Assembly: GCF_038396675.1 (NCBI RefSeq)
Contig: NC_088921.1
Coordinates: forward strand, 1,050,501-1,114,500
Reading direction: 5' to 3'
Origin: Hydra vulgaris
Taxonomy: Eukaryota > Cnidaria > Hydrozoa > Anthoathecata > Hydridae
DNA length: 64,000 nt
The notes below the pieces were generated by a model. That model worked only from the letters and a program-made list of their open reading frames with translations. It searched no databases and was not told where the DNA came from. Both the position numbers and the translations under genes were made by a program. Shown one piece after another: positions 34,999 through 64,000 of this stretch. How positions within the stretch are numbered: the stretch's first letter is position 1; each line of letters begins with the position of its first letter.

Positions 34999-35915
34999 TT
35001 AAAAGAACCAAAGGTGTCGAGAAAATGCAGTAAAAGCTGCAACGGCGATTGTGCCGTTTGGATACTTTTGGAACTGTTTCAGCATTTGAGCATCATTAAA
35101 CGGAGCATTTGCAGCCAGGGGAGCTTCTTGCCAAAAACGTCCATAAATTAATGCCACAAACAATGCAAGCTCTACTAGATCTTTTTTCTCTTGAACAGTC
35201 AGCGTAAAGTCTGTCCAAAGCTCTAGCAACTTCTAGGCTTGACACAATACTTTTCAGACGATTTGGCTTTGGTGTAGAAGAAATAGATTGCAATGCAGAA
35301 GACAGAATCTCAAAACTCTGGTCATCATTGCTGTTTCGACTGTCTTCTGAACTGCTGATGTTGGCTGTGACAGGACCACTAGAGTGTTGCTGTTTTGATA
35401 ACCTTGCATCAAATGCTTGATCTCGAGCTCTCTTTCTGGCTTCCTTTGCCAGTAGGTTCATATGAACTCCGACCATGCTGAAGCTGGTAACATCTTCTCG
35501 CTGCATTGCAAGAAATTGCCTATCTTCAGCAATGGTTATTGTCTCCATTGCGGTTTTAGTTGCCAAGTCAAAAAGCTCATAAAGTGTGTCCTTGAACATC
35601 TGTTTTTTAATTCTACAACTTTCTAGGTCTGTAGCTCGATTCTTTTTTAGAAGCTGATAGGAATCGTATAATTTCCGAAGTTTTCTTTCTCCAGAATCAA
35701 TTCTTTGTGTTGGGATTCTTACCTTATTCCACACAACAATCAGCTCTTGAATAGTATGATGAATGCTCTCCTTTATTGTGAGATGCTCTTCCAGATGATG
35801 AAAGAGGAGACAATGGAGGACATCTCATTTTGTTGCCAATCTTGATGATGAGAGCTGCTTAGATGCCTTCCCAATGAGCCATACCTTTGCAGAGCTTCTT
35901 GTAGTAACTGCCATA
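34999..35915 (-). pseudogene. Uncharacterised transposon-type protein, left-arm copy
   Basis: The first ATG on the minus strand is at 35915 (MAVTTRSSAKVWLIGKASKQ). After a stop and frame change it reads HLEEHLTIKESIHHTIQELI, VWNKVRIPTQRIDSGERKLR, KLYDSYQLLKKNRATDLESC, LYELFDLATKTAMETITIAE and DRQFLAMQRED. A second frameshift near 35230 leads to a C-terminal LYADC or ELWTDFTLTVQEKKDLVELA frame. The pattern 'KES...ELL-FW-KA-IPT... KL-LY--W--L-KNK... LFD-A... I-ED--FL--QR' recalls a family of uncharacterised multicopy proteins in aphids and hydrozoans. No catalytic motif is recognised. The right-arm copy starts at 63252. Confidence 0.6.
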
Positions 35916-36523
35916 AGTGGTGATGAATCAGTTGATATAAGAATAATAAGTATAAGAAAATAAATTATTTGTTACCAGAAACAAAAAAATAATCATTATA
36001 AATTGTTTATTGAAATACTGCAGGCATGTGCCTATTACAAATTGGGCACCAAATTATAGACAACAAAAAAATTTTAGATATATAAGTGAATTTATATAGC
36101 ATCTGCTTTTCAGCAAGCATTAATTTATTTACCAGTGTTGAGATAGATGTTCAGTTACACCAAATTATAAAATTGAGTATTGTCAAACAAATGATGAAAT
36201 CATAACGACCTCTAAAACTGTTCAGATTGGTCCAATTTTTTGTATGGTTATTCTCTAAACAAAGTTGAACAAAATTAGGCTTGTGGAGAGAATGTAGACA
36301 TATTTTGAATGTGTGTGTGTATATATACATATATGATTTGTAAGGCGCACAAAAAGATTTCTAAATCATATATATATATATATATATATATATATATATA
36401 TATATATATATATATATATGATTTGTAGGGTAAATTAATAATAATAAAGTTATGATTTGTATGATTTGTACACAGTATCGGTAACTAAAACTTTGCAAAG
36501 AAAAAAAAAGTGCAACCTAAAAC
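35916..36523. other. Gene-free, with (TA)n at 36369-36420
   Basis: The TA tract is bounded on both sides by ATGATTTGTA/TAAATCATATA-like inverted sequence. The right-arm counterpart has a much shorter TA tract (~62783-62796). Confidence 0.6.
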
Positions 36524-37159
36524 TGTAAAAATTATTTTTTGTCATAATAGTTTAAAAAATGCACGATTTATTTTAATGTAAATATTTTATTAATAAGATA
36601 TTTTGTTTATTGTTAATTTAAATTTTGGTTATTGTTAACGTAAAGTTTTAATGACGTTTGTTTAATTTATGAAAATAAATTATGATCACGAATATGTTAT
36701 CGGTAACTGATAAATAACAAAAAAAAACTCTTTATTGTTAAAAAACATTATTAAAAAGAGTTCACAAATTAAATAAGAAAAAATTTATTAACAGTTAATA
36801 AAATAATCAAAAACCAACTGTAAAATCATAAGAAAATAAACAAACATTATTTTACGTTTCATGAAAAGAATATTTTTTTCAAAATAAAATTTAGTTCATA
36901 TTTGAAAAAAATAATAAAAATGATTTATTAAATAAGAACTTAGATTTTATTTGTAACTTTTGTTCTAGTGAGAAAAAAACTAACTGTTTGTATGATTTTT
37001 AATGCGTTAATAAAATAACTTTAATTACAAAGCGGTACTTGAAAAGACGCTAGTGACGCAATATAACTTCTAACGATGCAAAATATATTTGCTGAGTTGA
37101 GTTACTTAGAAATGTGTTACGCGTTTTCGCTACGCAGCGAAATCTTGTAGCAAGGCCTG
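36524..37159. mobile_element. Truncated hAT-like element, left-arm copy 1
   Basis: It matches 47556-48175 almost base for base (TGACGTTTGTTTAATTTATG, AACGCGTTAATAAAATAACT-type stretches) and ends with the same terminus CGCAGCGAAATCTTGTAGCA-AGGCCTG at 37159. The other terminus (CAGGCCTTGTTAAGAAGC in the full copy) is missing. Non-coding. Confidence 0.85.
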
Positions 37160-37827
37160 ATGTGCGTATATATATATATATATATATATATATATATATA
37201 TATATATATATATATATATATATATATATATATATATATATGTATATATATATATATATATATATATATGATTTGTTATATATTGTGTGAAAATGTAAAA
37301 AAGTTTTCAAATAAATTTTAAAGCATAAAAAATGATATTTTTAAATAATAATGACTTATAGACATCAGCATCATCAACTTGTTAAATAAAATAAATTGGA
37401 AGTTACAAATGCAATAAAAACGAGTAATAAGTGTAGTTGTAATATAAAGCTGAAAAATTTGTATTTTTTTGAGAAACTTCTTTTATAAATGTCATTGTGT
37501 ACTATTATGAACAAATAGTAAATATTTGTTTTTAATTTTTTTTTTTTTTTTTTTTTTTTTTTGGGAAACATGTTTTTATTGCACATAGAATTTTTAAAGT
37601 TGTTTTTACAAACTTGATAGTACCTTGTTTGCATTTTTGTTTTTGTTTTATTTTTAAAAGTAAAAAAGAATAAAAAAGTTTTTACAAGTAAAAAAGTTTA
37701 AGTTTTATTTAATGGGAATTTTAGTGATCATCATAAGTTTTGATTTTTTTTATTTTCATTCTCTGTTTTAGTCTTAGGTGTTTTAAGCATGTTTTTTTAA
37801 ATTTATTTTCAATTTCTCATGTTTCAG
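37160..37827. other. (TA)n tract and gene-free sequence
   Basis: TA repeat at 37167-37269 and a poly-T run at 37540-37562. Frames there are artefacts. Confidence 0.7.
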
Positions 37828-61839: not shown

Positions 61840-62264
61840 CTGAAACATGAGAAATTGAAAATAAATTTAAAAAAACATGCTTAAAACACCTAAGACTAAA
61901 ACAGAGAATGAAAATAAAAAAAATCAAAACTTATGATGATCACTAAAATTCCCATTAAATAAAACCTAAACTTTTTTACTTGTAAATTTGTTCATAATAG
62001 TACACAACAACATTTATAAAAGAAGTTTCTCAAAAAAATACAAATTTTTCAGCTTTATATTACAACTACACTTATTACTCGTTTTTATTGCATTTGTAAC
62101 TTCCAATTTATTTTATTTAACAAGTTGATGATGCTGATGTCTATAAGTCATTATTATTTAAAAATATCATTTTTTATGCTTTAAAATTTATTTGAATACT
62201 TTTTTACATTTTCACACAAGATATAACAAATCATATATATATATATATGTATATATACACACAT
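61840..62264. other. Mirror of 37160-37827 with contracted repeats
   Basis: The poly-T run of the left arm is absent here and the TA tract is reduced to about 35 bp (62234-62258). Confidence 0.7.
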
Positions 62265-62690
62265 CAGGCCTTGTTAGGAGATTTCGCTGCGTAGCGAAAA
62301 CGCGTAACGCATTTCTAAGTAACTCAACTCAGCAAATATATTTTGCATCGTTAGAAGTTATATTGCGTCACTAGCGTCTTTTCAAGTACCGCTTTGTAAT
62401 TAAAGTTATTTTATTAACGCATTAAAAATCATACAAACAGTTAGTTTTTTTCTCACTAGAACAAAAGTTACAAATAAAATCTAAGTTCTTATTTAATAAA
62501 TCATTTTTATTATTTTTCTCAAATATGAACTAAATTTTATTTTGAAAAAAATATTCTTTTCATGAAACGTAAAATAATGTTTGTTTATTTTCTTATGATT
62601 TTACAGTTGGTTTTTGATTATTTTATTAACTGTTAATAAATTTTTTCTTATTTAATTTGTGAACTCTTTTTAATAAGCTTTAGGTTGCAC
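62265..62690. mobile_element. Truncated hAT-like element, right-arm copy
   Basis: Starts CAGGCCTTGTTAGGAGATTT and continues with the same interior as 36524-37159, shortened: the part corresponding to about 36524-36750 is mostly deleted. Confidence 0.82.
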
Positions 62691-63251
62691 ATTTTTTTTT
62701 TCTTTGCAAAGTTTTAGTTACCGATACTGTGTACAAATCATACAAATCATAACTTTATTATTATTAATTTACCCTACAAATCATATATATATATATGATT
62801 TAGAAATCTTTTTGTGCGCCTTACAAATCATATATGTATATATACACACACACACATTCAAAATATGTCTACATTCTCTCCACAAGCCTAATTTTGTTCA
62901 ACTTTGTTTAGAGAATAACCATACAAAAAATTGGACCAATCTGAACAGTTTTAGAGGTCGCTATGATTTCATCATTTGTTTGACAATACTCAATTTTATA
63001 ATTTGGTGTAATTGAACATCTATCTCAACACTGGTAAATAAATTAATGCTTGCTGAAAAGCAGATGCTATATGAATTCACTTATATATCTAAAATTTTTT
63101 TGTTGTCTATAATTTGGTGCCCAATTTGTAATAGGCACATGCCTGCAGTATTTCAATAAACAATTTATAATGATTATTTTTTTGTTTCTGGTAACAAATA
63201 ATTTATTTTCTTATACTTATTATTCTTATATCAACAGATTCATCACCACTT
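62691..63251. other. Mirror of 35916-36523, gene-free
   Basis: AT-rich with short TA and CA runs (62782-62860). No gene. Confidence 0.55.
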
Positions 63252-64000
63252 ATGGCAGTTACTACAAGAAGCTCTGCAAAGGTATGGCTCATTGGGAAGG
63301 CATCTAAGCAGCTCTCATCATCAAGATTGGCAACAAAATGAGATGTCCTCCGTTGTCTCCTCTTTCATCATCTGGAAGAGCATCTCACAATAAAGGAGAG
63401 CATTCATCATACTATTCAAGAGCTGATTGTTGTGTGGAATAAGGCAAGAATCCCAACACAAAGAATTGATTCTGGAGAAAGAAAACTTCGGAAATTATAC
63501 GATTCCTATCAGCTTCTAAAAAAGAATCGAGCTACAGACCTAGAAAGTTGTAGAATTAAAAAACAGATGTTCAAGGACACACTTTATGAGCTTTTTGACT
63601 TGGCAACTAAAACCGCAATGGAGACAATAACCATTGCTGAAGATAGGCAATTTCTTGCAATGCAGCGAGAAGATGTTACCAGCTTCAGCATGGTCGGAGT
63701 TGATATGAACCTACTGGCAAAGGAAGCCAGAAAGAGAGCTCGAGATCAAGCATTTGATGCAAGGTTATTAAAACAGCAACACTCTAGTGGTCCTGTCACA
63801 GCCAACATCAGCAGTTCAGAAGACAGTCGAAACAGCAATGATGACCAGAGTTTTGAGATTCTGTCTTCTGCATTGCAATCTATTTCTTCTACACCAAAGC
63901 CAAATCGTCTGAAAAGTATTGTGTCAAGCCTAGAAGTTGCTAGAGCTTTGGACAGACTTTACGCTGACTGTTCAAGAGAAAAAAGATCTAGTAGAGCTTG
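63252..64000 (+). pseudogene. Uncharacterised transposon-type protein, right-arm copy (runs off window)
   Basis: ATG at 63252 (MAVTTRSSAKVWLIGKASKQ); in-frame TGA in the ATK-DVL stretch near 63340; frame change; then HLEEHLTIKESIHHTIQELI, VWNKARIPTQRIDSGERKLR, YELFDLATKTAMETITIAED, RQFLAMQREDVTSFSMVGVD, EARKRARDQAFDARLLKQQH. It differs from the left-arm copy at a few codons (A/V, D/H, L/S). The 3' part leaves the window. Confidence 0.6.

Follow-up and report, generated by a model that had tools for sequence, protein, structure and literature searches.

Long inverted arms with little spacer between them are familiar from Y-chromosome palindromes and ampliconic inverted repeats, and large units in both orientations are the mark of chromosome-specific segmental duplications. 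Both bear on a window of 64,000 nucleotides in the genome of Hydra vulgaris (C2:1050501-1114500, C2 being the name used here for contig NC_088921.1; 911,502,276 bases in 15 contigs), in which the sequence to the left of position 50017 recurs, inverted, to its right. An earlier note, made from the sequence alone, proposed that this inverted repeat is either a giant palindrome or a fold-back or assembly artefact. With a probability of about 0.9, the palindrome is an artefact of assembly in which a gap was filled between two paralogous contigs. Four direct observations carry this reading: a step in quality at the axis, the paralogy of the two arms, a downstream sequence missing at the fold and a shared private deletion. 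That a gap was filled here, and that a foldback read filled it, we infer.

Three published sources set the technical background. The AEP haplotype of HydraT2T (GCF_038396675.1), to which the window belongs, comprises 912 Mb in 15 chromosomes described as gapless; 4420 HiFi contigs were scaffolded, and all 1523 gaps were filled with raw nanopore sequence before short-read polishing (PMC12220107). Nanopore sequencing of genomic DNA yields foldback reads at about 0.55-0.6%, with virtually none in a HiFi sample (PMC12870357). Such artefact reads share with this locus an opposite-strand match, almost nothing between the halves and an artefact-prone data type, and differ from it in that the foldback is here inferred in a finished assembly and is joined to a different paralog (PMC12870357). 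At inverted-duplicate junctions, nanopore quality drops just past the junction, and the bad part is somewhat short (PMC7229812). The resemblance lies in a clean first arm followed by an error-rich second arm, about 10% shorter, that starts at the axis; the junctions described there are real yeast duplications, whereas the error-rich stretch here ends sharply at a clean arm (PMC7229812). Among the papers listed on Hydra vulgaris and segmental duplication, none deals with this locus by title or abstract start, and the junction is not claimed to be unreported.

Alignment confirms an inverted repeat, arm for arm, about an axis at window position 50017 with a spacer of 1 base (Table 1). Within the window, 35166-50017 matches 64000-50018 in inverted orientation at segment identities of 84-99.5%, far beyond chance; 35166-36381 pairs with 64000-62783 at 99.2%, and 37681-43672 with 61986-55980, also at 99.2%, over an alignment of 6,007 columns. 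The earlier note was right about the mirror and gave it too small a size, placing it at 35166-64000 with arms of 14-15 kb. With 30 kb of flank added on the left (negative window positions) and 70 kb on the right (positions above 64000), the mirror covers the whole window and runs out to -20181 opposite 103292. Its outer ends are a 66-bp match between C2:1023787-1023852 and C2:1153825-1153760, which lies outside an insertion that looks transposon-like, since it has many matches on other chromosomes. The left arm reaches C2:1023787, about 77 kb including insertions, and the right arm C2:1153825, about 53 kb. The sequence right of 64000 therefore does go on mirroring that from 35165 downwards, a continuation on which the note had not decided, as far as -20181 and 103292 and the outer 66-bp match.

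The mirror does not take in the entire contig, the outcome that the note had tied to a wholesale artefact. It ends at C2:1023787 and C2:1153825, and the sequence outside the two arms differs in the parts compared: 3.3 kb on the left and about 31 kb on the right gave no flank match, and among the rows listed for a 6-kb right-flank probe of the genome (40 of 6267 candidates scored) none is an inverted match to the left of C2:1.02 Mb. An extension of the palindrome past C2:1153825 is unsupported by this flank comparison, in which the left side was followed for 3.3 kb beyond C2:1023787, and by the probe. Off-axis matches of 86-89% between -721 to 1544 and 127366 to 129581 were considered and taken as repeats. 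Outside the error-rich inner right arm, the arms are long, inverted and 96-99.5% alike, diverging by 0.4-2.6% in substitutions with few indels. The 164 kb of joined window and flanks contain no N, and the G+C content of the window is low (28.5%). About 20 kb (-16517 to 3604) are present in the left arm only, the right arm having 8 bases between the flanking matches; this excess may reflect an insertion in the left arm or a deletion in the right.

Much of the window has copies elsewhere on C2. Only part of the candidates was scored for each probe, and copy numbers are lower bounds. Window 43700-48400 has long copies near C2:1.87, 6.78, 7.51, 7.57 and 7.99 Mb, with pieces elsewhere on C2. Copies of 25300-33500 lie near 1.67, 1.85, 3.98, 7.52 and 7.56 Mb, alongside more diverged ones, and 35200-36300 has at least seven full-length C2 matches at 98-100%, the two arms included. 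Each probe consists in part of transposon sequence, which recurs on other chromosomes at no more than 97% identity among the rows listed. The family has several copies longer than 1 kb and more than 90% alike at distinct places of one chromosome. On these data, a C2 duplication family with TSR exons is real, large and of an ordinary kind; no feature found here distinguishes it from chromosome-specific segmental duplications, and its copies, most of them 97-99% alike, occur in both orientations along roughly the first 8 Mb of C2. Many segmental duplications, again in both orientations, were seen in the first 8 to 9 Mb of C2, and pieces of the right flank outside the palindrome match other C2 places at 95-98%.

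The inner part of the right arm, read here as raw-nanopore gap fill, differs in quality from everything around it. The arm-against-arm alignment comprised 13 outer and three inner segments, with shorter colinear matches left out. Against the left arm, the fill has 115 substitutions and 168 indel events (114 missing, 54 extra) in 3,033 aligned bases, with 417 bases missing and 79 extra. The 13 outer segments have 428 substitutions and 76 indel events in 40,041 aligned bases. Indel events per substitution amount to 1.46 in the fill versus 0.18 in the outer arms; ten control pairs of other family copies gave 0.00-0.16. The step in quality is abrupt at both borders, the axis and near 53,150, and among the arm segments compared this is the one stretch with a raw-read error profile. 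Against the copy at C2:6.777 Mb, the left arm shows 13 mismatches and 1 gap in 4,677 aligned bases, and the 51.4-53.2 kb part of the fill shows 51 mismatches and 285 gap bases in 1,667; the errors are assigned to the right arm because the left arm is clean against that copy and the fill is not. The error profile of the fill looks like that of raw nanopore sequence. The look of a folded-back raw read, which the earlier note allowed for the repeat at large, is limited to the inner 3 kb or so of the right arm.

The fill also carries a mark of the left copy. Thirty-two bases present in all six of the other copies read there (up to 4 differences allowed) are missing from both the left arm and the fill. 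Near the axis, the fill therefore looks to be of the left copy, as would be expected if the read had folded back on that copy.

The fold point lies inside the duplicated unit. A probe of 49900-50150 gave 23 scored places: the window itself, 13 that were counted and nine diverged ones, opposite-strand rows there being left uncounted. Of the 13 other places, all of which carry the sequence as far as 50020, 12 lie on C2 and one (90%) lies on contig C10. In all 13, the fold point is directly continued by the start of one common downstream sequence, as judged from coordinates to within a few bases (one overlaps by 22), and in six copies the continuation was read across the fold point. In two of the 13, the listed downstream match breaks after about 290-400 bases and then resumes. 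The common downstream sequence is missing from both arms. The nine uncounted places (89-91%, query 1-132 or 1-136, two of them within the window's own arms) are a diverged repeat inside the unit and are not followed by the beginning of the downstream sequence. The idea that a transposon or the unit itself ends at the axis was rejected, as the 13 counted copies run through the fold point. The left gene was probably cut short in the assembly.

The two arms are not each other's closest relatives, as judged in two regions against five and four other copies. In 2,613 columns of an outer region, compared between both arms and five other copies, the left arm differs from the copies at 3.976, 1.853, 1.674, 7.560 and 7.521 Mb in 34, 41, 41, 42 and 102 columns; its difference from the right arm is 79 columns. 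Among two-state sites in this region, 26 are shared by the right arm and the 7.521-Mb copy only, whereas no site pairs the two arms to the exclusion of the rest. In the inner clean region (43700-46480), compared with four other copies, there are 47 variable sites, of which three join the right arm with the 6.777-Mb copy alone, two with the 6.777- and 7.989-Mb copies, one with the 7.989-Mb copy alone and none with the left arm alone. An approximately unbiased (AU) test rejects the arms as a pair in both the outer region (p 1.3e-5) and the inner clean region (p 0.003). Together with the site patterns, this rejection means that the right arm did not arise as an inverted duplicate of its counterpart. 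The nearest relative of the right arm is the 6.777-Mb copy in the inner part, and further out it groups with the 7.52-Mb copy. This change of relative by region, and the absence of a row at the 6.777-Mb copy among the matches listed for probe 25300-33500, make mixing among family copies likely. A plain fold-back of one molecule over the full length is ruled out by the 0.4-2.6% divergence with few indels outside the fill and by the different nearest relatives. The suspicion of a fold-back or assembly artefact survives, but the two strands of a single molecule do not make up the repeat over its whole length, since its outer arms are different paralogs.

The course of events that best explains these observations is as follows. 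A large segment with TSR exons is present on C2 in many near-identical copies, and the assembly would have broken at two of them. Scaffolding would then have put the two pieces side by side in opposite orientation, and the gap would have been filled by a raw nanopore read folding back on itself at 50017. The first half of this read would have matched the left piece; the error-rich second half, complementary to the left copy, would have been similar enough to the right paralog to serve as a bridge.

Several points weigh against this course of events. At left positions 47206, 47420 and 48090, the base in the fill is that of the 6.777-Mb copy and not that of the left arm, each of these sites lying within about 10 bases of other fill errors. 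Eight sites in 48.4-50.0 kb set the left arm and the 6.777-Mb copy together apart from most other copies; the fill goes with the left arm at five of these and with the others at three, an outcome that depends on the alignment. The six discordant sites could stem from import by short-read polishing, from chance errors or from a second read; they may also mean that the molecule held both paralogs. A genuine palindrome would likewise degrade nanopore quality beyond its axis, and the published loss of quality past a junction fits the fill, yet it does not separate a real junction from a foldback read.

A rival reading is a junction that is real and head to head. A break in the left copy would have folded back to yield a small inverted duplication; recombination of this duplication with an inverted paralog farther along would then have given arms of mixed ancestry. 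The result would be a palindrome that is real but imperfect, its arms about 53 and 77 kb long, folded back at a 3-bp microhomology within a C2 duplication unit, remodelled by recombination with other copies and carrying two facing TSR genes. The fold does sit at such a microhomology, TAGACTA, and 3 bp of microhomology is expected for fold-back repair. Copies of the unit occur in both orientations on C2, and at three fill sites the base is the one found in the right arm's lineage, with departures from the left arm at three more. Loss of nanopore quality beyond the axis is also seen in real inverted duplications (PMC7229812). Two events are required, however, the sole sequence across the axis is error-rich, and neither arm has the downstream sequence found in the 13 other copies, all of which leaves a real junction of this kind improbable.

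A classical palindrome or ampliconic inverted repeat, in which a single event truly duplicated the left copy in inverted orientation, would account for inverted arms that are 96-99.5% alike outside the fill with almost no spacer. Its arms should be sisters, and the AU test rejects this in both tested regions; in the outer region, the left arm is nearer to four of the five other copies than to the right arm. A rescue would need both tested regions to have undergone gene conversion from other copies. The one-event duplication was rejected on the same divergence and non-sister arms and is scarcely credible. Y-chromosome palindromes and ampliconic repeats differ from this locus on these very points: the arms here are not the closest copies, and the axis borders low-quality sequence. 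The real giant palindrome of the earlier note finds no support, as the arms are not sisters and other copies run through the fold point. Slightly less remote, and still very unlikely, is a join in opposite orientation of two strain haplotypes or alleles, to which the divergence of 0.4-2.6% and the insertion differences lend some resemblance. A similar divergence separates copies that lie at different places on a single chromosome, the right arm groups with the 6.78- and 7.52-Mb copies and not with the left arm, and the outer flanks differ. A misplaced allele of the 6.78- or 7.52-Mb copy may be involved, which would be a variant of the gap-filling explanation.

Table 1. Features of the inverted repeat about window position 50017 (window positions; indel, insertion or deletion; vs, against)
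Feature	Position	Strand	Remarks
Left arm	1..50017, on to about window -26713	+	One copy of the C2 segmental-duplication unit; clean where compared (43700-50017)
TSR-motif exons, left copy	33724..46010	+	Starts 33724, 33909, 34177, 39728, 40610, 41637, 45626, 45895; placed by motif
LINE-type reverse transcriptase open reading frame, RVT_1	48133..49230	-	365 amino acids; open in left arm
32-bp deletion junction, left arm	49435..49457	+	Deletion in left arm, in 0 of 6 other copies
Fold point TAGACTA	50014..50020	.	3-bp stem, 1-base loop; axis 50017; last bases common to other family copies
Error-rich inner right arm, read as raw-nanopore gap fill	50018..53150	-	About 38 substitutions and 55 indel events per aligned kb vs left arm; net loss about 10% of bases
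32-bp deletion junction, fill	50521..50543	-	Left arm's junction present in fill
Right arm proper	53151..64000, on to about window 103325	-	Different paralog of the left arm's unit
TSR-motif exons, right copy	53640..59960	-	Starts 59938, 59045, 58015, 54023, 53754; two more beyond window; placed by motif

The TSR exons were placed with a sequence pattern that we take to represent the TSR motif. The left-copy exon at 34177 matches thrombospondin-1 structures (E 4e-4), and a Pfam scan of a single exon returned no TSR family. In window 33600-33950, a perfect tandem duplication of 185 bp (1.9 copies) repeats a TSR-motif exon start, at 33724 and 33909. The mirroring of exons on opposite strands, reported in the earlier note, is borne out by the motif placements, on the forward strand in the left arm and the reverse strand in the right. 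Its further suggestion, that two convergent TSR genes could form long double-stranded RNA, is unsupported, because both the pair and the RNA rest on what is probably a false junction. The 13 other copies continue through the fold point, and two family copies read further downstream of it have additional TSR-motif exons.

The RVT_1 open reading frame of the left arm has no counterpart in the mirrored fill in the list of open reading frames of at least 120 amino acids. Its listed named protein matches are mostly from catfish, at about 65-77% identity (best 120 of 2776). These matches may reflect either horizontal transfer or merely the best-named database entries. A separate observation concerns the ends of contig C1 (length 74,107,500), where C1:54501-57500 and C1:74056029-74059028 are inverted copies, 100% identical over the 3,000 bases compared. 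Match pairs 32.8-56.5 kb from the start of C1 are mirrored at its other end, with coordinate sums that differ by one base. Either a recent exchange between chromosome ends or the same sequence extending both ends could explain this identity.

If the gap-filling explanation is true, a chromosome described as gapless holds a false junction that truncates a TSR gene and creates a convergent gene pair that does not exist, and anyone scanning for inverted duplications would count that junction as a giant palindrome. The signature, an error-rich stretch starting at the axis together with non-sister arms, would be usable at other filled gaps. Early C2 is rich in duplicated segments, where such assembly errors are to be expected.

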